Assembly: GCA_000310025.1 (NCBI GenBank) | Contig: FN649731.1 | Location: 76,181-103,980 of the forward strand | Direction: 5' to 3' | Source of the DNA: Ectocarpus siliculosus | Lineage: Eukaryota > Sar > Phaeophyceae > Ectocarpales > Ectocarpaceae | DNA: 27,800 bases | Part shown: positions 2,990 to 27,800 of the stretch, one piece after another | How positions within the stretch are numbered: position 1 is the stretch's first letter | Layout: each line of letters opens with the position of its first letter | Translations under genes and position numbers: made by a program | The notes under the pieces: model-generated | Told to the model about the DNA's origin: nothing | What the model saw: the letters and a program-made list of their open reading frames with translations, nothing else | Databases searched by the model: none

Positions 2990-3180
2990 GTTTACGTTAT
3001 TTTTACTGGAGGATGAAGAGAAGGCAAAAGTAAACCTCGAGGGTAATACACTGAAGTCTAGCTTCGCACTCCACCACGCAAGTCAACTAGAGACGAGATA
3101 ATAGTACGCGAAAACGATGTCCCTCCGTATTTGCGACCAACACCCATAACAACGGTCACATGCAAGGGCGCAAGCAAACA

Positions 3181-3355
3181 CTCAGACTACAAACAAGGAC
3201 AGTGAACACAAGGGTAAACTACTCAGACTACAAACAAGGACAGTGAACACAAGGATAAACCACTTCTAGTCTATGGAAGTCGTGCCCTTAAGCTTGTTCT
3301 ATATGCATCTAGTCTATGAAATTTGAACCATTAAGCTTGTTCTATGCATAGTTCC
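3181..3355 (+). repeat. Two adjacent short tandem duplications
   Basis: CTCAGACTACAAACAAGGAC begins at 3181 and again at 3222, giving a 41-bp period with nearly identical units. Directly after it, a different unit containing CTAGTCTATG and TTAAGCTTGTTCTAT occurs twice, at about 3265-3308 and 3309-3355. These are small minisatellite-like duplications without coding signal. Confidence 0.75.
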
Positions 3356-7294: not shown

Positions 7295-7365
7295 TGGGCT
7301 AACGCAGCGCTAACCTAGCCCTAATGCAGGCACAACAACCTAGAACTGAGCCACCCAATGTCAAA
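7295..7365 (-). repeat. Inverted relative of the 51-bp repeat unit
   Basis: The minus strand reads GGGTGGCTCAGTTCTAGGTT, then GTTGTGCCTGCATT, AGGGCTAGGTTAGCGCTG. This closely matches the first units of the degenerate array that starts at 8697 on the plus strand. The two therefore form an imperfect inverted pair about 1.4 kb apart. Confidence 0.6.
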
Positions 7366-7385
7366 TTAGCACCTATTGGGTCGGT

Positions 7386-8696: not shown

Positions 8697-8945
8697 CTCA
8701 GTTCTAGGTTGGTGTGCCGGCATTGGGGCTAGGTTGGCGCTGGGTGGCTCAGTTCTAGGATGGTGTGCCGGCATTTGGCGCTAGGTTGGTATTGATGGGA
8801 CAATCTCTAGGTTGGTACTGCATGGATAAGTGCTAGGTTGGTGTTTATGCGATCGACCTAGGTTGGTATGGCTTGCATAGGTGCTAGGTTGGTGTTGACG
8901 TGGGTAGGTGCTAGGCTGTGTGGGCCTAGGTCTCTCTAGGTTGGG
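8697..8945 (+). repeat. Degenerate tandem array of CTAGGTTGGT units
   Basis: CTAGGTTGGT or a close variant recurs about nine times. The first two units are the clearest, with CTCAGTTCTAGG at 8697 and 8748 (51-bp period). Later units are shorter, near 30 bp, and more diverged. It looks like an old minisatellite. A reverse-oriented relative lies at 7295-7365. Confidence 0.75.
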
Positions 8946-15024: not shown

Positions 15025-17042
15025 CTGCGAGGTCTTTGCGCCTAGGAGATGGACCTATTTTAGTTCACACGTGGTGTGAGGCACACGCGACGCGTTCATT
15101 CCGTGGGGCATTTTTTGGGACCCCTCTGTTAGATAACGGAAGGGCCGTCAGGACACAAATGTGGATGTTGTTACATACCAAATGGAGTGGTATGAATAGT
15201 GGGCGCCTTTTTCTCGGTGGCCTTCTCTTGCTCCAGGCTCTATTTAGGGAGAACAACAAATCAGACACGCGTTAGGTTGTCCAACAAAGGAGTCGTCCGT
15301 CGAGAAGAAAAGCAAGAAGAGGCCCTCTCGCGTCAACACCACTAGACAAGACAGCAGCCAACAACCAACTCACGATCACGCCACCCGTTTCTCCCGCCCA
15401 CGCGAGATCCCGATCATGCAAGATAACTCACCCCTCCCTCCACGTACACAAGCTCTCGGAGCATCTCCATGTTTCCCGTCATCGCAACACCCGTGATCGC
15501 GTCGCGGTAGGCGTTTTTCCCGAGTAAGGCCACGCCCCGCTTGAGCAGCATCCGCACGATGGAAACGTGCCCGCCCTGGGCAGAAATCGCCAGCGGCGTG
15601 TAACCTACGCTGTCCGCGGTCCCTGCGTCCACGTTGCAAGTCTCTAGCAGGTACTTGGCGACCCTGAAAACCCGGTTCGCCCGGCAAAAAACGACAAAAA
15701 ACAAATGTGGTACAGCAGTAGCGGTTCCTGTGCTTGTTGCCGGTATGTATGTTCCCAGAAAATTGCTCGGCACTATTTCAAAGCACAGAAATACTTTCTC
15801 ATTTCGTCTGTGCCCGCCGAATACCGGGCGGCCGCACTATCCAACCGGCACTAAACAGGACCCCAACTTTGCGTCAGAAAAAACAGGGAGTTAGAGAGAG
15901 ACACACGTACCATAACCCAGCAGTCGTTCAAAACGCGGGACTGGAGGGAATAACGCGTTGTCCGTGGCAACAGGGTAGGCATGGTGTCATCAAACGTAAT
16001 AAACTTCTTGCACGACGCATATTGTGATGTTAGCACCCTACTTGGAAGTAACAGATTTTCCGTCGATGTGATATGTAGTGCATCAAAATCTGTCGAACGA
16101 TATGTAGCTAATGGACGCAGGAAGCAGAAAGTCGGGGAGTGAGCGATCGGGCATGCACGTTCTCCCTCATATGCGGTACAGTATCTTCGCTTGGGTATGG
16201 TTCTTCACGAACCTACGTCGCTCGGGAGGCTGTCAAGAGAGAGGCAGGCACACGCTACTGCTGCCTGTTGATCGTGGAAGAAACCTCGGTTTTGAGAGTT
16301 GGTGATCAAGTCGGCATCGTGCCACGCGCACAGCAACAGTAGTCACACCAACAAGCACGAAAACCCCACGCGAAAGCGCCCAAATAGCCAACACCAAGCT
16401 CTACAATACCAGGTGTTTTGTGCACGTGTTGTGATTAAATTTGTAATTTGTTACAACGGTTTCATGATTCTTGTCAAGTTTTTGGTTTTGGGGAGGAGGG
16501 CGTCTAAAACTGCAACCGGAGGACTGAGGTTATATCTCGCACGGGGCAGCCTTGCTTTGATTGCATCAAGTATAACTTGAACGCCATGTTCTGTATGGTA
16601 CCCGCAGAAGTGTACCGCGGGTATTTTTCCGGGTATCTACCCTACAGAATGTTACAGACGAGATCTGTAACACTTCCAGTACCCTACAGAATAATTCAGA
16701 GAGTCATACGACACTTCCAGTAAGTACCCTGTAGAAAAACTTCTGCAAGTTCTGTGCAACGAAAACGATGTACTCCAACTTACTTCGTGCGGCCGCTCAT
16801 GCAGGCGTTTGCGAGCGGGGGCTGCAGGGCTCCACTACGCCACTCCGGGTCAGAGCCGGCCCTGACGAGCTCCTTGAGCGCGGGGAGATTCCCCTCGTCC
16901 GCGGCGAGGTGTATCGGCATGTACTCCTCGGCGTCGAGGGCGTCGAGCCTCGCTCCTCCTTCGATGACCTTCTTTATGATCTGGACAGGGAGGGAGGGGG
17001 GGAGAGAGAGAGAGACAGAGAGAGAGAGACAGACAGAGAGAC

Positions 17043-17133
<91 letters not shown>

Positions 17134-19697
17134 GTAAGAGAGAAGGAAGAAAACGCAAGAGAGAGAGAGAGACACACACACAGACAAGACGGGGGGGACC
17201 GCGGCCGGGAAGTCGGGTAACCAGGCCAGCCAACCGATAGAAGAATGAACAAGGACGCAATCGCTGATTGAGGATGATGGTCGAGCGGGGGGCACGGACG
17301 TGGTCGACTACAGGAGGTTCATTGGCGCCAATAGCTGTTGGACATTCCGGATATTTTACATTGTCTTGATGCGTACCTTATGTTGGGTTAGCATTGTCGC
17401 CACGGAAGTCTGCCTCCTCGTCCAATGGCTACGGAACAGGAGATGCTAAATAGAGATAACGTAACATCATTCGCCACAATGTACAGCGCTACCACCTTGA
17501 CCTATTATTGCCTACACACAAATACACACGTTTGGCATTAGAAGTGTTTCGTGTTTTCAACCGCACTGAGACTGACGTTTCATTGGTCAGCCGGTTAGCG
17601 CGGGCGATGCAAATAATAAAGAAACACACACGTTCACGTTTAGAATCATGAAGGCATGCAAGTAGTGCGTACCTGCACATCGCCTTGGCAGGCGGCTTTA
17701 TGCAGAGCGGTGCGTCCCGACCCTCCCGTCTTTAAGTTCACATCGGCGCCGGCGGCCAAGAGCTGTGCGACGATGCCACGTTCACCTGGCGATACATGAA
17801 CATACAACACGCCGCGGAATGGGGGCCGGCCAAGCGCTATTTGTATCTACATGTCAGACGATGCACAAGGGTTCGGAATAGGGTCCGTTATGACACACCT
17901 CTCTCCGTGACGTGAATCAACATATGCACGCAAGAGAGAGCGAAAGAGAGAAGGAGAGAGGGAGAGAGAGTGAGACAGACAAGACACACACACAGAGAGG
18001 GCGGGGAGGCAGGGAGGGACAAGTAAATGTTGAGACGTGGACCGACTCCATCAGCTCTCTTCGTGTGGAATTCTGCAATTTCTAGGCTCTGCAAGGGCGC
18101 GTGCGAAACGCGTGCACACGCCAGCATGGTGACGGCCCTGCTACCGCCGCCACCGCCGCCGTCACGGCCGCCGTCACCAATAAACGAGCCAGGGTTGACC
18201 TTGCTCAAACACGAGACGTAGCTCCGTCGAATCACGAGCAACACATCCACTCAACATGTGTGTGTACGTCGTGGGTCTTTCTTTTCGTAAGCATCGATGA
18301 CCGGCTGACCAATGAAAATACGTCAGTCTTAGAGCGGCTGAAAACAGAGAATAGCCTGGAAAGCTGGACGTGTATCTACGTTTCCAAAAGAAAAATGAAA
18401 CGTAGCCACCCTAAGGACCGACCTTCGCCGATGGCGGTCTGGAGCGGAGTCTCCCCTCCCCGCATGCGCTTGTCCACGCTGGCGCCGTGCTGTAGCAGGA
18501 GGCGGACCATTTCCGGACGGCCGAGGAAGCAGGACAGCCCCAGCAGGTAAACGGGGGCCTTGCCTCCTCGCCCCTTTGGTCAGGAAAAGGTGCAGCACCA
18601 GCACCAGCACCAACAGGAGGCAGATTGGTGTAGCAGCAGCACCAGCATCAGCAAGAGGTGGATGTTGTAATGGCACGGAAAATGTGCGAACAGGGTCAAA
18701 AGCAGCAGCAGCAGCAGCAGTAGCTGCACGTTACGAGAAAACTGATACTCCTACGGCAAAGGGCCAACAGTGGCGGCAAACAGGGCAGCGGACAATCAGG
18801 CGCCGTATCTTGTGCACGAGAGGCTGCACGCTTCGGGTGCATACGCATACATGCATGGACTACACCCGACGTTCGAAGCCGGGACTTTCTCGACAACAAT
18901 CACGGCAAGAAAGTATCGCGGGGTAATTCCCAACATTTTTCTCAAGGTAGTGTCTACAGCAGTAGTGCTGGAGAAAATCGTAGAGAACGCACAGCTCAGG
19001 ACGCACGTCTGGCCTCTGTACCGGCGTGTAACTGGATCCCGGGATCTCGGGATTTGAAATTTGAATTTGAAAAGCAACTCTATCCTGTGTCTGTCAACCA
19101 TCGACCTCGGAACACGGCCCAGTTTCCCAGAACCCCCCAAACGTCCCCAGACCCCAGACCGTTTGAGCCAGATAGCCTCGTACTACACTGCCTTTTTGAT
19201 GTTTGCCTGTTCATCCGCTGTCTGTCTGCTCCCTCTCTTCTGTGCAGGAGCTCAAGGAACGAATGTGTACAATAGACTACGGCGGTACCGGCGGTATTTA
19301 GTGCAGTCTACTGCTGCTGTTGTAGCAGCGGCGGCGCAATTGTTCCACTTTTTACATAGACTAGATAGAACCTACGGGCTACAGCAGCAGTGGTACAATG
19401 CTGCACGGACTTGCTTCAGCCAGCCATCGAAATAAAAATGGATCACAACAGCGTCTACGAAGTAAGCTCTCTAGGTTCCTTCTTCTCCCGTTAATTTCCC
19501 AGAAAATGGCGCCTATCTGTAGCACTAGGAGGGATTATGACTTGATGACATGCGTACAATTTCCAGCACACACTTACGTCGGACGGGATGTTCGGATCTA
19601 CTCCGGCCTCGAGCATGCGAGCTGCTAGCCCGGTGTGTGCGCAAGAGATGGCCTCCACCATCGTGCACGCGGCGTCGAATTCGCGTAGGGTAGGCAT
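14377..19697 (-). CDS. Ankyrin-repeat protein, six-exon gene (486 aa)
   Basis: Six minus-strand exons join with GT-AG introns and consistent phases (0, 1, 0, 2, 0): 19697-19578, 18573-18423, 17785-17673, 16980-16784, 15663-15432 and 15024-14377, totalling 1461 nt. The joined protein carries about nine or ten ankyrin units over residues 1 to about 315. Consensus pieces include MVRLLLQHGASVD, GETPLQTA, IVAQLLAAGADVN, GRTALHKAACQGDVQ, MPIHLAADEGNLPALKELV, GYTPLAISAQGGHVSIVRML and TALHFSAGY. Several units are split by introns and become complete only after joining, which is strong support for the model. The last 170 or so residues are low-complexity with an acidic EKEWVDSDESFDEAF stretch. Ankyrin repeats bind protein partners; the partner here is unknown. 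There is no kinase, membrane or zinc-finger domain. The first ATG follows an in-frame TGA 11 codons upstream. The 3' end is the least certain part, since a donor-like GGTGTGTGTATG near 14480 could lead to another exon. Confidence 0.8.
15432..15663 (-). CDS. Ankyrin gene exon 5
   Basis: It completes codon 194 and encodes residues 195-271, including GYTPLAISAQGGHVSIVRML. The acceptor GGGTTTTCAG is preceded by a T-rich tract, and the donor GTGAGT follows VEGG. Confidence 0.85.
16590..16760. repeat. Intronic cluster of CCCTACAGAA repeats with hairpin
   Basis: Three variants of a unit of about 43 bp containing ACACTTCCAGTA and TACCCTACAGAA occur here. A 9-bp hairpin, TGTTACAGA-loop-TCTGTAACA, lies at 16650-16672. 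GCAGAAGT near the left end and ACTTCTGC near the right end are inverted, as in a small MITE. The cluster lies in ankyrin intron 4, just below the exon 4 donor. Confidence 0.5.
16784..16980 (-). CDS. Ankyrin gene exon 4
   Basis: It encodes residues 129-193 plus two bases of codon 194. It continues the unit begun in exon 3 (GDVQ then IIKKVIEGGARLD), followed by MPIHLAADEGNLPALKELV. The acceptor CCCTGTCCAG lies directly beside the large microsatellite, and the donor is GTAAGT. Confidence 0.85.
16981..17190 (+). repeat. Compound GA / CAGA microsatellite
   Basis: Roughly 200 bp of (GA)n, (CAGA)n and (CA)n repeats, with 11 to 13 consecutive CAGA-type units in the middle. In the sense of the ankyrin gene it is a CT/CTGT pyrimidine tract that ends at the exon 4 acceptor. 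Confidence 0.95.
17505..17650 (-). repeat. Dispersed repeat E in ankyrin intron 3
   Basis: The minus strand contains ACCGGCTGACCAATGAAACG, TCAGTCTCAGTGCGG and TTGAAAACAC, flanked by GTGTGTGTTTC and AACGTGTGTAT. The same order occurs on the plus strand at 18245-18390, so the two copies are inverted and flank exon 3. Confidence 0.7.
17673..17785 (-). CDS. Ankyrin gene exon 3
   Basis: This 113-nt exon supplies the last two bases of codon 91 and residues 92-128, joining GETPLQTAIGEG to ERGIVAQLLAAGADVN, a textbook ankyrin unit. Acceptor ATGTATCGCCAG and donor GTACGC bound it. It was too short to stand out as a reading frame on its own. Confidence 0.8.
17928..18022 (+). repeat. GA-rich microsatellite
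   Basis: Interrupted GAGA and CAGACA repeats lie in ankyrin intron 2, pyrimidine-rich on the sense strand, about 140 nt before exon 3. Confidence 0.85.
18245..18390 (+). repeat. Dispersed repeat E in ankyrin intron 2
   Basis: ACCGGCTGACCAATGAAAAT, ACGTCAGTCTTAGAGCGG and CTGAAAACAG form a core of about 45 bp with few differences from the intron 3 copy. The flanks also match loosely (ATGTGTGTGT before, GGACGTGTAT after). Confidence 0.7.
18423..18573 (-). CDS. Ankyrin gene exon 2
   Basis: It encodes residues 41-90 plus one base of codon 91. The acceptor follows TTTTCCTGACCAAAG and the donor is GTCGGT. A second in-frame acceptor 15 nt inside (after GGCAAG) is possible but has no pyrimidine tract. 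The upstream intron carries a CTG-rich repeat. Confidence 0.75.
18590..18725 (+). repeat. CAG/CAC trinucleotide-rich stretch
   Basis: Interrupted AGCACC and CAGCAG units include seven consecutive CAG-type triplets near 18702-18722. It is intronic (ankyrin intron 1), CTG-rich on the sense strand, just before exon 2. Confidence 0.8.
19578..19697 (-). CDS. Ankyrin gene exon 1 (start codon)
   Basis: It encodes residues 1-40, starting MPTLREFDAAC and ending GVDPNIPSD, which is the second half of an ankyrin unit. The donor is a consensus GTAAGT at 19577-19572, phase 0. The codons preceding the ATG reach a stop without another ATG. Confidence 0.75.
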
Positions 19698-19979
19698 GAT
19701 GAGGATGGTTTGGTGGTAGTGAACCCATCAACTTAATGCAGCCAGCTCCCAGCTCCGCGCCGGTGGCGCCGGTCGTGCATACGCCAAAGCTGGCGAGATA
19801 AAAAGGTTCTCCAGCTGGAAAACGCCTCCCAGAACCACACCCTACAACGCCTCATTTGAATTGAACGGGTCACACCGCCGCAGCAACAACGGCTGGCGGC
19901 CAACGCGATAGTGGCGGCGTTCCCTTCAGCAGCTCACACCAGCCTCATACCAGTCTACGACAGCAGATGGAGGTTGATT

Positions 19980-20030
19980 CTAATCGCGGAAGCTGACTAG
20001 CCGGATGGTCTAGTTCCGCGATTAAAAGAT
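19980..20030 (+). repeat. 37-bp repeat, first copy, with 11-bp hairpin stem
   Basis: TGACTAGCCGGATGGTCTAG continues to AAAAGAT and is repeated exactly at 20256-20292. In this copy TAATCGCGGAA lies just upstream and pairs with TTCCGCGATTA inside it, giving an 11-bp stem. The second copy lacks the left arm. The GGATGGTCTAGT string resembles a tRNA A-box. Confidence 0.7.
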
Positions 20031-20181
20031 ATGCGCTGAGCTCGTTAGCACCCGGCCGGATCACATGGGCTTGAGGCTGTTAGAAGCTTAATCACTGGGA
20101 TTGAGCGTAGAGATCTCCGGGGACGGACCCCTCGCCAGACGCCGCTGTTTGGTAAACAAATGGCGGTTCTTGTGTAAGTGG

Positions 20182-20252
20182 ACCGATTGGGATTCGAACC
20201 CGTGCGTGGAACCTTGTGTAAGAACGCTTTGACCATTAGACCACTAAGTCAA
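20182..20252 (-). repeat. tRNA-like sequence (probably SINE-derived)
   Basis: The minus strand has TAGTGGTCTAATGG (A-box-like, 20246-20233) and GGTTCGAATCC (perfect B-box, 20200-20190) with tRNA-like spacing over about 71 nt. The acceptor ends do not pair and the anticodon loop would be too small, so I do not call a functional tRNA. It is flanked by the two 37-bp repeats, which suggests one composite element spanning roughly 19980-20306. Confidence 0.5.
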
Positions 20253-20255
20253 CGT

Positions 20256-20306
20256 TGACTAGCCGGATGGTCTAGTTCCGCGATTAAAAGATTTTTTTTT
20301 TTTTTT
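20256..20306 (+). repeat. 37-bp repeat, second copy, followed by T15
   Basis: This is an exact second copy of the 37-bp repeat at 19994-20030. It runs straight into 15 T (20292-20306), then GTGGT and the inverted copia fragment. Confidence 0.8.
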
Positions 20307-20311
20307 GTGGT

Positions 20312-20548
20312 GTTCATCAAGCCTACATCCAAGAACATACTCATGTCCATCAAAGGCAAATTATCCTGGGACTCAAGGGGCATGATCTCTATCTCTCGCG
20401 ACACATTCGGGTTCACGACTGAGGGGGACAGGACGTCGGATGAGGCGATGGCTGCGGCTAGGGCAGGCTGAAAATCTCGGATCGACGGAGACACTAAATC
20501 AACATCGATAGGCGGGGAAGCATCACTCGGAGGTACTACACCGGAAGT
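20312..20548 (-). mobile_element. Inverted 237-bp copy of copia internal sequence
   Basis: The minus strand is, as far as I can read by eye, identical and gap-free to 23268-23504 inside the element. It encodes the same peptide from TSGVVPPSDASPPIDVD to DVGLMN. It abuts the surviving 62 bp of the 5' LTR with a GT dinucleotide shared at the joint. On its own strand it ends ACCAC followed by A15. It is a rearranged copy, not a separate gene. Confidence 0.9.
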
Positions 20549-20608
20549 CATGGCCGAGCTGCTCTACGCTCCCATCACACACAACTGAGCCACCCGAATT
20601 ATCGATCA
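20547..20608 (+). repeat. 5' LTR remnant (last 62 bp)
   Basis: Identical to 27516-27577. It begins GTCATGGCCGAGCTGCTCTA and ends TTATCGATCA. Sequence before and after differs between the two copies, as expected at a truncated left end and at the junction with the internal region. Confidence 0.85.
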
Positions 20609-20692
20609 CGCTAGCGTATGACACGTCGTCTACGAGATTCGAGTCGAGCTTAGTTTGGAGTATCGCTTTGCGGCGATCAGCAGCAGCCACCG

Positions 20693-22165
20693 ATGAGCGA
20701 CACCGAGCAAGATCGAGTGAGCGCCCGACTAGCAGAGGAGGAAGCCCGGATCAACTACTTGGTCGAACAGAGGGTAGAAGCAAGACTGGCCGAGATGTCG
20801 AGGCAAGAAGCAGAGGAGCGGAGGACAGATGACGTCCGGACCGGAAGAGAGCACGAGGATCGCCACCAGCAACACGCGGGGCGGCCATCGGCCAACCCGA
20901 CGACCGACGAAATCGCCCGCACACTCGCCGACGCCCTCACCGGTCGACTTCACGTCTCATCAGGGGACATGGGTAGAGTACCCATTAACGCAGGGACGGT
21001 TCGAATGACTGAGACTAAGCGCCTAGCGCCTTGGGATGGTGTTTTCAAGCAAAGGGAGGATGAGCAGGCTAAGTTTTTGATTTTTCGATCGAACATGGTA
21101 GCTATGTTTGCCCAGGAAGGAGTGCGTGACGTAGTACTGACAGAAGAAAAAATTCCAGTTGGGAAAGAAGGCGTGAGCATGGAGGAGATGCGTAGGGTGC
21201 ATTCGAGTGGAAGGGTAGAAAAGGCAATAACGGCGTGGAACCTGCTGATCACGACAGTGACATACATGCCAATCCTAACCCAGATCATCGCCGATGGGAG
21301 CCCTAGTGGAGGTTGGAAGATATTCCTCGATTATTACGAGCCGCGTGCCAGGGCCGAAAAAGAAAGGCTGTCATCTCAATATCACGCTCTTGAGATGAAA
21401 GTAGGGGAGACCCCGCAAGAGTACTTCGGGAGATTTGCTGTTTTGCGCAGTAGGCTCGCCTCGCACGGTGTTGTTTTCTCCGACGATGATGCCAATGCCC
21501 ACATGGTATACCACCTTTCCGACGAGTACTCGGTAGAGAAGAAGATTCTGACCATGTCACCGATTCCCCCCTCGCGCGAAACAATTGAAAAGGCTGTGCG
21601 AGATGCTCATGCGGACTCGGTTCGCCGTCGGGAGGGGGAACCGAAGAATGGCGCGGGGCACGCGTTCGTCGCTTCCGGTGGCATCCGGGGCGATGGACGT
21701 GTCCAAAATGGGTCGTGTGGAAACGGCGGGGGTCAGGACGGAGACGGAGGCGCCCGGAGTCGGAGCAGGAGCAGGGTGAGAGGAAACAAGAAAGGCGGAG
21801 GCGAGAGAGGAGCCGACAACGACCGCTGCTACCTACATCCGCGCTTGTTCCACACCAACGCCCAGTGCTACACCCAGCGCGACCGTCGGAAGGAGCAGGA
21901 GCAGCAGCAGCCCCAACAGCAGCAGTCTCAGCAACAGCAACCCCAACAGCAGCAGTCTCAGCAACAGCAGCCTCAGCAACAGCAGTCTCAGCAACAGCAA
22001 CTTCACGGACCGCCGCCGCAGCAGCCGAGCTACAGTGGGGGGGGCTGGGGCGGTGGGCCTCAGCACGGACCTCACAGCGGCTACGGAGGACAAGCATCAG
22101 CACAGGTATGCAGCGCCCCCTCGTCCTCCACAACCGCCTTGGCGGCCTCCGTACGGGCACGCTAA
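20693..22165 (+). CDS. gag: copia Gag (490 aa)
   Basis: The Gag precursor packages the retrotransposon RNA into virus-like particles in the cytoplasm. The N-terminus (1-60) is a charged coiled-coil-like stretch, rich in Glu and Arg. Residues about 105-300 have the pattern of copia-type Gag (UBN2-like): WNLLITTVTYMP, then WKIFLDYYEPRARAEKERLS, then YHALEMKVGETPQEYFGRF. An Arg/Ser/Gly-rich basic segment follows. Next is a zinc-knuckle-like CYLHPRLFHTNAQC at 379-392, spaced C-x2-H-x4-H-x4-C. A glutamine-rich repeat of roughly 40 residues (21897-22000) follows. The start ATG is the first in frame after the LTR remnant. The frame ends at 22165, while protease continues in the +1 frame, so either a programmed frameshift or a one-base insertion separates Gag from Pol. 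Confidence 0.85.
   Translation: MSDTEQDRVSARLAEEEARINYLVEQRVEARLAEMSRQEAEERRTDDVRTGREHEDRHQQHAGRPSANPTTDEIARTLADALTGRLHVSSGDMGRVPINAGTVRMTETKRLAPWDGVFKQREDEQAKFLIFRSNMVAMFAQEGVRDVVLTEEKIPVGKEGVSMEEMRRVHSSGRVEKAITAWNLLITTVTYMPILTQIIADGSPSGGWKIFLDYYEPRARAEKERLSSQYHALEMKVGETPQEYFGRFAVLRSRLASHGVVFSDDDANAHMVYHLSDEYSVEKKILTMSPIPPSRETIEKAVRDAHADSVRRREGEPKNGAGHAFVASGGIRGDGRVQNGSCGNGGGQDGDGGARSRSRSRVRGNKKGGGERGADNDRCYLHPRLFHTNAQCYTQRDRRKEQEQQQPQQQQSQQQQPQQQQSQQQQPQQQQSQQQQLHGPPPQQPSYSGGGWGGGPQHGPHSGYGGQASAQVCSAPSSSTTALAASVRAR
21897..22005 (+). repeat. Glutamine-encoding minisatellite in gag
   Basis: Units of about 30 bp made of CAGCAACAGCAA, CCCCAACAGCAG and CAGTCT variants encode QQQ-Q/P/S repeats. 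A second, pure CAG run at about 22236-22259 occurs early in the pol frame. Confidence 0.85.
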
Positions 22166-25100
22166 TGTGATGCACGCGTATAGTGCTATGCCCTACGGGG
22201 GGCCCGCGAATGGTACCGAGTATGGCGGGTGGGAGCAGCAGCAGCAGCAGCAGCAGCAGCCTTCGCCAGACTACTACCAGCAGCAGCCGTACTACCCGCC
22301 TCCGACACCGTACTACCAGCAGCAGCAGCCACCATCGCAGCCTCCGCCACCGCCGTCGTTTCAGCCGCAGCAGCAGCAGCACTCCACCCATGCCCCGCCC
22401 CAGTCGCCCTCTCCCGGAGCAGCAACCTATCCGCCTGGGCATCTCCACTCCCTGATGGCACACTTTGTGTCCGCTGACGAGATGAGTTCGCTTTCGGTTT
22501 CGAGTGATGTAAGCAGTGTCGCATGTGGTGATGATCTTGGCTTTGCTTTGTCTGCACAGAGTTGCGAATACAGTCCTGGTAGGGAGGTATTTTGGTCTGA
22601 TAGCGGTGCAAGCAACCATTTTGTGAGTAACAGCTCCAAGATGTACAACATCTCGCCTGTCCCCCCCGGCAAAGAATTCATCAAAGTAGGCAATGGTGCT
22701 TATTTGCGCGTGGAGTGCGTAGGTAGTGTCAATCTGGCATTTCACATGGCAGGAGGTCGATCGGGAGAAGCGGATTTCTGTGTCCAATTGACAGACGTGT
22801 ACGTAGTACCAGGGATTTCGTTCAACTTGTTCTCTCTGCACCACACGCAGAAAAAGCACAGGATAATGTTGGATGAGAGGGGTGTGCACCTTTTCGGTCG
22901 TCGGCTTAGTTTCGCATATTCGGATATCGGATGCTCTCTATCGGCCACCCGCTTGCCTCCCTCGTACCGCGACGGTGATGTAATCCCCTCTACCGTTGTC
23001 CCTCCCCCCGTTGTCCGCCAAGCGTCTCCGCCTGGTGTTGGTACTGGCCTTTTTGCGCAAAACCCCCCTCCCCCTTCTCAGATTTCAGGATCGGGTGCAG
23101 GATGCGGTCCGAGTTCCAGCTTCCCGTCCATCGGTCCCGCCGGTGTTGTACCTTCGGCTTCGAGTTTCCCGTCCATCGGTCCCGCCGGTGTTGTACCTTC
23201 GGCTTCGAGCTTCCCGCCCATCGGCGCTGCCGGTGTCGTACCTTCGAGTTCGAGCATCCCGTCCACCACTTCCGGTGTAGTACCTCCGAGTGATGCTTCC
23301 CCGCCTATCGATGTTGATTTAGTGTCTCCGTCGATCCGAGATTTTCAGCCTGCCCTAGCCGCAGCCATCGCCTCATCCGACGTCCTGTCCCCCTCAGTCG
23401 TGAACCCGAATGTGTCGCGAGAGATAGAGATCATGCCCCTTGAGTCCCAGGATAATTTGCCTTTGATGGACATGAGTATGTTCTTGGATGTAGGCTTGAT
23501 GAACGGACAGGACTCGGTCCCGCCGGGTAACTTTTATCCCGACCCATTAGGCGTATGTGAGTCCGTGAAGCCCCCCGTTGCGTTCGCTGTGATGCAAGAT
23601 GAGTTGGACGTGCTCAGAGACTTTGTTGTCGAGTGCCGTGTGCAGCAAGATGTAGGTCCCCCCTCCCTTTCCCATGCTTTGGCGATTATCGCCCCCGGTG
23701 GTCCAGCGTTCACTGTAGGAAAACCCACGTCCACCATCGACATTAATTTGTTCCACGCTTCCACCGGCCACGTGAATGAATTCTTGATGAGGGAAACCGC
23801 AAAGCAGCAGGGTGTTCAATTGGTGGGGGAACTGCAGCCATGCGTCGGCTGCATCGAGGCGAAGGGCAGGAGGGCCCCGGTGCCGCGGCGTGGAGTCACC
23901 CGCGCGGCGGTACCGTTCGGCAAGGTACACATCGACATCACCGGCCCGTACTCTGAGGCGTTCGATGGTTCTCGTTACCTGATCATGTTCGTGGACAGCG
24001 CGTCGCGGTGGCAACGGGCGTACGGCATGCGGGCCAAGAGCGACACCCTGACGTACACGCGGCGCTTCCTCGCCGACCTGAACGGCAACGGTACTCCGGG
24101 GTGTTTCCGCATGGACAACGGTGGTGAGTTCACCAGTGCTGCCTTCGTCGAGTTCTGCGACGCCGCTGGCATCCGGCGCGAGTACACCGCGCCCGACACC
24201 CCGAAGCAGAATGCGGTCGTCGAGAGCGCAATCTGGCGCGCTATGAAGGGGGGCCACGCCGCCCGTCGCCACGTCCTCTCCATGGGCCACGTCGACCTCG
24301 CCTCTATCCCCGGTATGGACGCCAACGGACACCGGCTGTGGCTTGCATCGGCGATCTGGGCCTCCGGCTGCTTCAACCGTTCCGCGACGTCGGCCAACCC
24401 GGCCTGGATGTCGCCGTTCGAGGCCTTCTTCGGACGTAAACCGCCGCTCAACGTCGTCCCTTTTTTCCAGGAGGGGATGATGCGCGTGAAGCGCGCCAGC
24501 AAGGCGGACGTCCAATCCGTGCGTTGCTTCTACATGCACGGAGCGCGCAACCACTCCGCCGCCACTGCCGTCGTTCTCCGCGCCGACACCGGAAGGATCT
24601 GCCTGTCCAACAACGTCGTGTGGATCAACCGCCGCACCGCCGTGCCGGCGCCGGTACCGGCCAGCGGGGGGGGCTCTTCGGTCACCGCGGCGCCCTCGCC
24701 GGCCGCCGCCGTTCCTGCAGCCGCTGCCGCACCGCCACCGCCATGGGCATCGCGGACGTACACCTACACCCCGCCCACAGCGACCACCGCTTCGCCGCCG
24801 CCCACTTCTCCGTCGATCTTCACAGAGTCCGGAGCCGCGTCGCCGATCTCCACGGCGTCTTCGAGTGCACCGCCGTCCACCGCAGCCACGCCGCCCCGTC
24901 CACCGCCGACACCCCCGCCCGCAAGCGCCGCCGCTCCCGCTCCCCATCACCCGCCGCTTTCACAGCGAGCCGTCAGAGAATTGGGCGAGAAGGAAACCAG
25001 AGTGCATGGCCGTACGCGCGGCGACCGAGTGCGCTTCATGGATGAGCAACAGCAACCGCCGTCGCCGTCAGGTGGCGGCACCGCTCTCCAAACACCGCCT

Positions 25101-25308
25101 TGGGCTGCTGTCGATGATGGGCAAGGATGCGCTCGTCTCGTCGCTCGCCACCCGGGAGGCCGTCGATCAAGGACGTCGAGACCTGCCACCGTCCGCCAGC
25201 ATCGCCCCTCCCGCTCCCCCACCGCCGCAAGATACGAGTTTAGCAGGCCATGGGAGCGGGGGGGCCGCAGGAGCTGGAGGGCCGGGGGGCCTGCACATGT
25301 TCGCAGCA
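22080..25308 (+). pseudogene. pol: copia Pol, protease and integrase part
   Basis: This frame, +1 to gag, first encodes a Tyr/Gln/Pro-rich linker (polyQ at about 22236). The aspartic protease follows with its DSGAS active site at 22599. The integrase zinc-binding motif comes next: H-A-S-T-G-H near 23753 and C-x2-C at 23841-23852. The catalytic core has Asp in HIDITGPY (23934), Asp in RMDNGGEF (24114) and Glu in NAVVESAIW (24222). Thirty-five residues separate the last two, the DD35E spacing. The integrase C-terminus includes RTAVPAPVPA and a long Pro/Ala/Ser/Thr linker. Somewhere between about 25050 and 25310 the coding signal moves to the next frame, consistent with a one-base insertion or two-base loss, so the frame stop at 25364 is not the natural end. 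Nominally the frame could start at ATG 22035. Confidence 0.85.
23105..23280 (+). repeat. 45-bp coding tandem repeat between protease and integrase
   Basis: Three 15-residue units (SFPSIGPAGVVPSAS and variants) and a partial fourth (SIPSTTSGVVPPSD) follow one another. The first two are nearly identical at nucleotide level. The left breakpoint of the inverted copy falls inside the partial unit at 23268. Confidence 0.85.
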
Positions 25309-25815
25309 ATGTTCGCCACCCGCGAGGACGTGGAAGCCACTCTTCGTGCCAAGCGCCCTCCTGACAAGATGCCGGACCTCCCTCACTGCCTCGCCAGCGA
25401 CCTCCGAGTGCCGAAAACGTTCAAGGAGGCCATGCGGTCTCAACATTCAGAGTTGTGGGATGATGCAGTCGGTCGGGAGTTTTTCGGTCTGTTGGATGCA
25501 GGTACTTTTAGTCCGGTGTAGCAACCAGTAGAAAACTTCATCAACGCCAAGTGGGTATTCAACTGTAAGGCAGACGAGTACGGATGGCCGACGAAATTCA
25601 AGGCAAGACTTGTAGCGCGGGGGGACATGCAGAGGGCTTCGATTGATTTTGGAGAATTGTTTGCACCCACCGTATCCGTGTCTAGTGTGCGTTTGTTGGC
25701 AGCTTTGGCATGTGAGCAGAACCTTGACTTGTGTCATTTCGATATTCAGCAGGCGTTTGTGCAGTCTGAGCTTGAAGAGGATGTTTTCATGCGTCTCCCG
25801 CGAAGGTTGTGGTAG
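25250..25815 (+). pseudogene. pol: copia Pol, N-terminal reverse transcriptase part with TAG
   Basis: In this frame TFKEAMRSQHSELWDDAV begins the conserved copia reverse-transcriptase region. A TAG at 25519-25521 interrupts it after GTFSPV. The frame then continues sensibly: NAKWVFNCKADEYG, FKARLVARG, LFAPTVSVSSVRLLAALA and FDIQQAFVQSELEEDVFMRLP. Near 25800 an apparent extra base shifts it to the next frame, where the match resumes with EGCGRLSG. Both lesions look like decay of a formerly continuous frame. Confidence 0.85.
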
Positions 25816-26944
25816 GTTATCTGGACTGATCGTGAAGCTATGCAAGAGTCTGTACGGTTTGAAGCAGGCGTCACGACAATGGCATGCGCACCTGACGAGG
25901 TGTTTGTTACTTTTAGGATTTGTACAATGTTTGGCGGATGCATGTGTTTTTCGATTTATGGAGGATGGATGTGTGATCATGATCATCGTGGTCCACGTGG
26001 ATGACATTTTTGCCGTAGGGCAGAAGGAGAGATGTGACAAGTTTGGCAGAGACCTCAACGAGATGGTCCCCGTGAAGAACCTTGGGGAGTTGAGGTGGTA
26101 CTCCGCGTGCTTTTACCAGAGAGATCTAGAGAGAGGCCTTTTGAGGATCTCGCAGCAAAGGTTTGCAGAAGAGTTGGCTGCAGAGTACGGCGTAGAGTGG
26201 GGGAAGAGTGTGCCCTTGCCTGTGAGCATGAAGCTCACCGACTTTGACGAGGACGAAGCGTGTGCTGATGTCCCTTTCCGCGAGTTGGTAGGATCCCTGA
26301 TGTGGTTGGCCACTCAAACCAGGCCGGACATCGCGAATGCAGTACGAGCAGTAGCGCGGTATTGCGCGTCTCCCAAGATGGTGCACTGGAAGGCAGCACT
26401 TGGTATTTTAGGGTACGTGCGTAGGACGAGTTGGATGGGGATTACATTTGAGAGGGGTGTAGTGACTGGCATGAGCATGCAGGTGTTTGTGGATGCTGAC
26501 TATGCGAGCAAGGCAGCAGACCGTAGGTCGGTTTCAGGAGGACTAGTGATGTGTGGGGGTGGGTGTGTGACTTGGTTTTCGAGGACGCAGAAGTGCGTTA
26601 CGCTTTCCACAACGGAAGCAGAGTATGTGGCAATTGCCGACGTCTTGAAGGAGGTGCTTTTCTTGAGGCAAGTTTGGCGTTTTATGTTGCCAGATGCAGG
26701 TATGCCGTGCATTCAAATCTTCGAGGATAATCAGGGAGCGATTCAGATTGCGCACAACCCGATCACGAACTCAAACTCGAAGCACATTGATGTACGGCAT
26801 CACTTTATCAGGGAACTGGTAGAGAGGAAGGAGATTTCGATTACTCATGTGGCGTCGGAGTTTCAGCATGCAGATTTCTTGACGAAGGCTATCAGCAAGG
26901 AATCTTTTGCGTTGCACAGAGACTTTGTGATGAATTTGCAGTGA
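25800..26944 (+). pseudogene. pol: copia Pol, reverse transcriptase catalytic core and RNase H
   Basis: After the frame change the frame runs unbroken to TGA at 26942-26944. It contains KLCKSLYGLKQASRQW, the catalytic V-D-D of HVDDIFAVG (25997-26005), and the copia landmarks FRELVGSLMWLATQTRPDIA. RNase H follows with FVDADYASKAADRRSVSGG, LSTTEAEYVA, EDNQGAIQIAHNP and SKHIDVRHHFIRE. This is the best preserved stretch of the element and ends HADFLTKAIS-like, as is normal for copia. Confidence 0.9.
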
Positions 26945-27515
26945 CAGAGGTGTTTTGGGATCAAATCGTGCTTTGCCGTTGAGTGGAAGAGAGAGGATAT
27001 GTACGAGTTTGAACAAGAGATAGAGAGGGTCAAGTGGAGATGGTAGTGTTTTGGAAGGTTAATGTTCGGGATTTTTCTTGATGATTTGGAAGAGTTGGTA
27101 TGCGATTGATTGTTTTTGGAGGTATTGTTTTGGTGTTGGAGTTTTCGATTTTGTCTTGGTTTTGATTTGTTTTGGGATGAACTGGTATGATAAGGATGAC
27201 TTTGATATTTTGTTGGAGCATGACGATGCATACGAGCAGGGGGGCTATTCGATATACTCGTAGCATAGCATGGGGGTGGTATATTGCGTATACATATGCG
27301 GGGATTGCAGTGACGAACTACGGAGGGACAAGAAGTTTCTTTGTGTTTTCCTTGGGAGTGTAGTAGATTGGTGGAGATTCATGGAGATTCGTTCTGGGTA
27401 TTAAAGCGTTATGCGTGACTTGATGCCGTGATGGAATGACGAGCTCAAGCACGCCCCCGATGAATACAACACGTTTTTCACCACGTCTACACGTCTTTAC
27501 CTACCCGTGCGGCCC
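26945..27515 (+). other. copia 3' untranslated region and probable start of 3' LTR
   Basis: After the pol stop there is about 570 bp of T- and G-rich sequence with no coding signal. Two purine runs, CAGGGGGGC near 27237 and CATGGGGGTGG near 27268, are candidates for the polypurine tract that primes plus-strand synthesis and directly precedes the 3' LTR. Confidence 0.5.
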
Positions 27516-27577
27516 GTCATGGCCGAGCTGCTCTACGCTCCCATCACACACAACTGAGCCACCCGAATTATCGATCA
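27516..27577 (+). repeat. 3' LTR end (62 bp shared with the 5' remnant)
   Basis: Identical to 20547-20608. The element ends at TCGATCA; the next five bases, GATTC, would be one half of a target-site duplication. The partner cannot be checked because the left flank is rearranged. Confidence 0.85.
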
Positions 27578-27800
27578 GATTCCGCTGCGGCTGAGGCAAG
27601 CTCTTGGCAGCTGGAGGAGGTGCTGGCTTGTAGCGAGGACGAGACGCTCGATGTTGGTGGGGAGGAGGAAGCTGCTGGGCTTCCTTTCGACGCCGCCGAA
27701 GGCGAAGATAGCGATGACGAGCCCTCGCCTGCAGGTGGTGCAGGCCTCTGGGACCCATCTCTAGGTATGGCAGGCTATAAACGTATGGGTATGGCAGGTT
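27578..27800 (+). CDS. Open acidic reading frame running off the window (partial)
   Basis: Directly after the LTR a frame starting GAT TCC GCT stays open for all 74 codons to the window end. It encodes an acidic, disordered-looking stretch with pieces such as SSWQLEEVLACSEDETLDV, EGEDSDDEPSPAGG and LWDPSLGMAGYKRMGMAG. The frame also extends back into the LTR without a stop. The acidic composition and the absence of stops suggest an exon interrupted by the retrotransposon. Acidic N-termini occur in many nuclear proteins and in some transposases, but no family can be named from this piece. Confidence 0.45.

Follow-up and report, generated by a model that had tools for sequence, protein, structure and literature searches.

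How does an LTR retrotransposon come to carry, where its 5′ LTR should stand, an inverted piece of its own coding region? The question is raised by a copia element in a stretch of 27,800 nucleotides from Ectocarpus siliculosus (the window; contig FN649731.1, positions 76,181 to 103,980). Pfam searches of three ORF stretches as they stand returned Retrotran_gag_2, Pol_BBD with rve and, further downstream, RVT_2. The order of integrase before reverse transcriptase, together with the copia-type gag (ORF at 20654-22165), identifies the element as Ty1/copia, and the 5-bp length of its own target duplication, GATTC, agrees with this assignment. A purine tract, AGCAGGGGGGC, directly precedes the 3′ LTR, and CGCTAGCGTATGACA directly follows the LTR end in many copies, at the position of a primer-binding site. 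Priming from the anticodon loop of a tRNA is known in some copia elements (PMC10886601); when the post-LTR bases were compared by eye with a tRNA anticodon arm, no complementarity was made out and no tRNA was identified.

The window copy has one full LTR (332 bp) and a 62-bp remnant of a second; sister copies with two full LTRs are present in the genome. Both ends were readable in 13 ordinary copies (one of them a solo LTR, L020), all with the ends TATTCG...CGATCA and with target duplications of 5 bp (10/13) or 4 bp (3/13). Twelve of these came from a set of 20 copia stretches, the remainder of which comprised three chimeras (L018, L019, L032), three copies whose far end was not found within the stretch (L021, L023, L027), one obscured by N (L022) and one that was interrupted (L016); the thirteenth, C57 (L057/L058), came from outside this set. 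The genome searches scored part of the candidates, for example the best 40 of 168, and copy numbers are lower bounds. One stretch (L027, C61:240500-249500) has the order LTR-internal-LTR-internal with a second post-LTR site and gag start after the second LTR, so that two copia units share one LTR. In six copies (C7, C15, C57, C25:3850, C456:893 and C1; L015, L018, L057, L063) a 3′ block begins near the equivalent of window 24562-24580. The sequence upstream of this block differs among the six, and in C57 the block follows immediately on the bases behind the 5′ LTR; its start marks either a hot spot for switching or deletion or a shared defective lineage. Elsewhere in the window lie inverted repeat pairs (7302-7376 / 8697-8778, 81-90% complementary, ~1.35 kb apart) that are possibly the ends of another transposon, a long simple repeat of the GA/GACA type (16976-17159) and a tandem duplication of 41 bp (3180-3261, 95% identical).

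A script comparison of the reverse complement of 20312-20548 with 23268-23504 gave 237/237 identical positions, and a repeat finder extended the inverted pair without gaps to 253 nt at 98%. The dinucleotide GT at 20547-20548 is common to the inverted fragment and the LTR (27516-27517), and the LTR remnant at 20547-20608 matches 27516-27577 at 62/62 positions. The exact inverted copy, the GT joint and the 62-bp remnant had all been described in the initial annotation. At its other end the fragment is preceded by a run of 15 T (20292-20306) and then GTGGT (20307-20311); this T15 + GTGGT stretch is unlike the usual sequence of either neighbour, and we found no template for T15 or for GTGGT. In a search for the same junctions at other loci, each occurred once in the 189,456,909-base assembly, TTTTTTTGTGGTGTTCATCAAGCC as an exact match and ACTACACCGGAAGTCATGGCCGAGCTGC at ≤3 mismatches (control searches, 0 for both). 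The fragment had been read as a copy of the element's own coding region. It is indeed identical to that region, but among the loci from L013 onward four other copies (L013, L025, L026 and L027) also match it at 237/237 positions, L014 matches at 235/235 aligned positions and eight copies differ at 1/237, so its source may be the RNA or cDNA of another family member.

The extent of the inserted molecule could be read from its target, a young repeat. The right flank (27578-27800) lies in this repeat, with six of nine matches, the window included, 100% identical over all 223 bases, and the right side is 223/223 identical to the same three siblings that match the left part. The left part of the target repeat ends in GATTC (19976-19980), and the right part begins with GATTC at 27578. 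Siblings L033 and L034 contain the empty site, GGAGGTTGATTCCGCTG, and run through GGAGGTTGATTCCGCTGCGG without copia, and the alignment coordinates of L035 give the same 5-base overlap, which implies an empty site there as well. The empty site in these siblings defines the duplication as GATTC and the inserted molecule as 19981-27577, which extends the interval initially annotated by 331 bp on its left. The features of the locus are as follows.

19763-19980, plus strand: left part of the target repeat, young, resuming at 27578 (99.1-99.5% identical to three siblings over 214-218 bp)
19976-19980, no strand: left target-site duplication GATTC (from the sequence and the empty site in siblings)
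19981-20291, minus strand: X, a SINE-like repeat, left end of the inserted molecule (multi-copy repeat, termini, boxes)
20292-20306, no strand: run of 15 T (A15 on the minus strand)
20307-20311, no strand: GTGGT between the T run and the inverted fragment
20312-20548, minus strand: inverted copia coding fragment, reverse complement of 23268-23504 (237/237)
20547-20608, plus strand: final 62 bp of the LTR, sharing GT with the inverted fragment
20609-27245, plus strand: copia internal region (Pfam, ORFs, sequence)
23268-23504, plus strand: internal sequence matching the inverted fragment in every base; the fragment derives from it or from a sister copy
27246-27577, plus strand: 3′ LTR, 332 bp, TATTCG...CGATCA
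27578-27582, no strand: right target-site duplication GATTC

Because GATTC brackets the whole chimera, the chimera entered as one molecule, and because the duplication lies outside it, the rearrangement preceded insertion. The initial annotation had placed a 237-bp inverted piece in the position of the 5′ LTR, bounded by a homopolymer. The piece is real and the homopolymer does have 15 bases, but the replaced end is longer, with 19981-20311 also inside the insertion, and the homopolymer is not the outer edge: the mobile repeat at 19981-20291 lies beyond it, still inside the target duplication. Its view that the structure is not a solo LTR, a nested insertion or a simple truncation is supported. 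The near-identity of the inverted pair had further been taken to date the event after the element's insertion. This dating is not supported, as the duplication puts the rearrangement earlier and near-full copies fetched from the genome are themselves ~99% identical in the internal region.

The repeat at the left end, X, is multi-copy. A query of 19990-20330 gave at least 110 matches in the genome search, the X end motif TAATCGCGGAACTAGACCATCCG gave at least 61 at ≤2 mismatches, and a related end, GGATGGTCTAATTTTACCGATTA, gave at least 125 at ≤3 mismatches among the matches listed (reversed controls of both motifs, 0). In the window, the X terminus TAATCGCGGAA is followed by GCTGACTAGCC. The ends of X are inverted (TAATCG...CGATTA, 25-33 bp) and often form a head-to-head palindrome. 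The minus strand of the window X carries a pol III-like box A, TGGTCTAATGG, and box B, GGTTCGAATCC, both called by their consensus; the two boxes are 32 bp apart in three of the four copies scanned (window X, L045 and L040; neither box in L044), and the X-like piece of copy C2 has box A without box B. Rfam searches with the window, L045, L044, L040, L012 and L019 returned no tRNA family among six matches at E ≤5, and ARAGORN found 0 tRNAs in the window. These results rule out X as a recognisable tRNA, and the term tRNA-like, where used for X, therefore refers to the box motifs only. The best Rfam match, to a microRNA precursor family on the palindrome of L012, reached 34.9 bits against a gathering threshold of 140 (E 0.0034) and was rejected; we take it as what any long hairpin would give.

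Solo copies of X showed that the repeat also inserts with short target duplications. Three of the four copies read are flanked by perfect 5-bp duplications, namely L040 (327 bp, GAAAG), L044 (375 bp, CATGT) and L045 (588 bp, TCTTC), and the fourth, the bare 66-bp X palindrome L047, has none. Within the right end of L040 lies a direct 23-bp copy of its left end, the ends of X being otherwise inverted. Another palindrome, whose head starts GCTGACTTGTAGCATAGTGG, was seen at ~860-945 of L072 (C1:535300-536270), near a copia copy that has inverted copia ahead of it; no duplication could be assigned to it. Two simpler accounts of X in the window were rejected. In a nested LINE-type insertion with an A tail, A15 should not lie inside the insertion, as it does, with no duplication after it; and an insertion of X into an existing 5′ LTR conflicts with the lack of a duplication around X itself and with the coincidence of the X end with the copia boundary.

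The termini of X resemble those of the LTR. The hexamer TAATCG is one base off the left LTR end, TATTCG, and also one base off the right LTR end read inwards, TGATCG, and in the relatives C3, C74, C310 and C236 the LTR ends in CGATTA, the same as X. Counted by eye, X and the X-like piece of C2 end 26-28 nt after the first base of the box-A-like motif. This spacing may place the X ends near the anticodon-loop position of a tRNA, which we note as a lead.

Six further copies lie within a target duplication (5 bp in five, 4 bp in one) and have X or an X-like repeat as one of their ends. They were picked for their odd ends, so the ratio of seven chimeras to 13 ordinary copies says nothing about how common chimeras are. 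In all seven, the window included, one end is X or X-like. The right LTR end is paired with X in the window and in three of the others. C18:3018 (L032; duplication TCTGC) has X on the left and 10 N inside the copy, and C15 (L012/L018; GCTTG) has X on the left followed by alternating sense and antisense copia blocks. C2 (L074/L064; TGAGC) begins with the X-like left end TATTTGATAAAG, followed by antisense copia, a 24-bp palindrome and sense copia; its left end was placed with the help of the right-flank pentamer, which occurs twice in 1411 bases, making it the weakest of the 5-bp cases. An inverted right LTR end is paired with X in C11 (L019; CACAC), where the final 16 bp of the LTR, reversed, form the left end and X stands on the right after a full 3′ LTR, and in C33 (L050/L073; GAGCA), where the left end is the reverse of the ~66 last nt of the LTR and X stands on the right after copia at ~window 22442. 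The left LTR end is paired with X in C18:1727 (L075/L076; GATC, 4 bp), which has an ordinary left LTR end, X on the right after an inverted copia piece, and 2010 N inside the copy.

Other copies depart from this pattern. In the C4 copy (L038), X fills an internal gap between positions equal to window 23422 and 24420, and GAGGC is common to both sides at the X exit junction. C66 and C129 are 5′-truncated, lack a 5′ LTR and have no duplication at the left boundary, and C1 has X-like pieces and inverted copia with no assignable duplication. These three were not counted as chimeras, and they indicate that some other process also damages 5′ ends. The 5′ ends of C4:1755, C21:2305, C30:1685, C30:2344, C126 and C5 (L022) fall in N and are uninformative, and that of C24 lies beyond the sequence read. 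The 45-bp tandem repeats at 23114-23248 contain, or lie within ~260 bp of, the breakpoints of C2, C15, C4 and the window fragment. In C2 (L065) the same coding region is inverted as in the window, with an inner end that by eye is roughly 20 bp from the window's.

The explanation that we favour, with a probability of about 0.8, is that the chimera was made before integration by template switching and that copia integrase then inserted it by one LTR end and one X end. Copia-family reverse transcription would misfire inside the particle, and DNA carrying the last ~62 bp of the LTR would switch to an antisense copia template, yielding the inverted 237 bp. A next switch, through GTGGT and T15, would lead onto nucleic acid of X. 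The product would end in X (TAATCG) on the left and in an ordinary LTR terminus (CGATCA) on the right, and copia integrase would join both ends into the young repeat with a 5-bp duplication, GATTC. The usual-length duplication around each chimera argues that the chimera was the integration substrate. That X ends one base off the LTR ends are paired with LTR ends inside duplications suggests that copia integrase took them as LTR ends, and the alternating strands and the hairpin palindrome favour template switching. A template switch during reverse transcription had already been proposed from the window sequence, and it fits both the entry as one molecule, given by GATTC, and the recurrence of similarly built copies. 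From these structures we infer that switching rather than end-joining was at work, in what order and on which strands it took place, and that X was a substrate of copia integrase. The LTR pieces of the window (62 nt) and of C33 (~66 nt) stop only a few nt apart, as might be expected if both ended where the RNA begins, at its 5′ end, and minus-strand A15 followed by X would fit an oligo-T/oligo-A annealing step. Taken this way, the chimeras suggest that a short repeat such as X can use copia machinery.

Inverted filler, microhomology and patches from several sources are typical of break repair. The window features would fit such repair, and X is a filler within the C4 copy. An ordinary copy might thus have lost most of its 5′ LTR after insertion and had the gap filled with X and copia; the lesion would, however, have to end in every chimera at exactly the element base that adjoins the duplication, and the terminus of X itself would have to land there, which makes such damage improbable. 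Copia self-integration, another initial suggestion, does yield inverted internal sequence attached to an LTR. Integrase, though, joins LTR termini, and because the junction here lies 62 bp inside the LTR, with X beyond the inverted piece, we give this autointegration practically no credence. An assembly artefact might be suspected in repetitive, hairpin-rich sequence, the more so as runs of N occur in copia or next to X in other copies, but is very hard to reconcile with perfect duplications around the chimeras, their recurrence across contigs and window junctions free of N.

The order of events would be the same if host repair had ligated X cDNA to broken copia cDNA before integration, with no template switching. 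Such end-joining needs free cDNA ends alone and results in the same bracketed structure, and the inverted pieces and short microhomologies (GT, GAGGC) suit joining and switching alike. The sense/antisense alternation in C15 and the hairpin palindrome of C2 look more like polymerase switching or snap-back, and we consider end-joining unlikely, though deserving of some weight. More doubtful is the idea that X is a DNA transposon, or another LTR-derived element, whose own integrase-like transposase made the chimeras. X does have 5-bp duplications and ends that are inverted repeats 25-33 bp long, and integrase-like DNA transposons (Ginger) exist (PMC2836005). This enzyme would nevertheless have to accept copia LTR ends on the opposite side as well, and the outer bases common to X and LTR ends and the pol III-like boxes in three of the four X copies scanned speak against it.

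The window chimera and X can be compared with several familiar systems. tRNA-derived SINEs have LINE-type duplications of variable length and a tail. X is like them in its box A and box B, which are 32 bp apart in 3/4 copies scanned, and unlike them in its inverted ends, in the 5-bp duplications of 3/4 solo copies and in having no recognisable tRNA. In LINE twin priming, or 5′ inversion, an inverted piece is attached to a sense piece. The window chimera likewise has a sense piece attached to an inverted one; unlike a LINE 5′ inversion, it has an integrase-type 5-bp duplication, an LTR end and an A-run inside the insertion. Another parallel lies in the retrocopies of LTR elements, in which foreign RNA is fused by template switching in the particle and integrase then inserts the product (PMC5408686). 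As described there, foreign sequence is joined at short similarities and then integrated, and the window chimera is likewise enclosed by one integrase-type duplication. It differs from the retrocopies of that account, where integrase binds LTR ends, in that one end comes from the foreign repeat X and that it contains an inverted piece of the element itself.

TRIMp3 elements (Helenus, Ajax and Cassandra) are short, with pol III-type promoter motifs and direct LTRs with PBS and PPT; 5-bp duplications occur in fungal and plant Helenus and Ajax, and the group is thought to be mobilised by LTR retrotransposons, fungal Helenus by Copia (PMC10886601). X resembles TRIMp3 in being short and in having pol III-like motifs (by consensus) and 5-bp duplications, and appears to differ in its inverted ends, which often form a palindrome, head to head, and in being fused to its presumed helper. 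The accessible part of a 2025 survey of Ectocarpus transposons contains no such element, and searches of an open-licence library, read at the level of titles and abstract openings, gave no report of a SINE-like repeat as a copia integration end. Chimeric cDNAs of LTR elements have been described before; what is new here is that a SINE-like end recurs.

For X itself, we offer tentatively, and would not bet on, the reading that it is a SINE-like parasite of copia integrase. Its hairpin cDNA would be made in copia particles and integrated as an LTR end, its ends would roughly coincide with the anticodon loop of a tRNA-like head, as though a tRNA 5′ half, a type of primer found in some copia elements, had been copied, and the copia chimeras would be accidents of this shared pathway. 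The chimeras are a natural record, with target duplications intact, of what copia reverse transcriptase and integrase tolerate. A foreign end can stand opposite an LTR end, an inverted piece like a strong-stop product can serve as an end, and one molecule can contain several strand switches. Should X truly depend on copia integrase for its movement, it would be an example of a short element with pol III-like boxes that uses the integrase of an LTR element without the normal LTR layout, and would then represent a route between SINEs and TRIMs.
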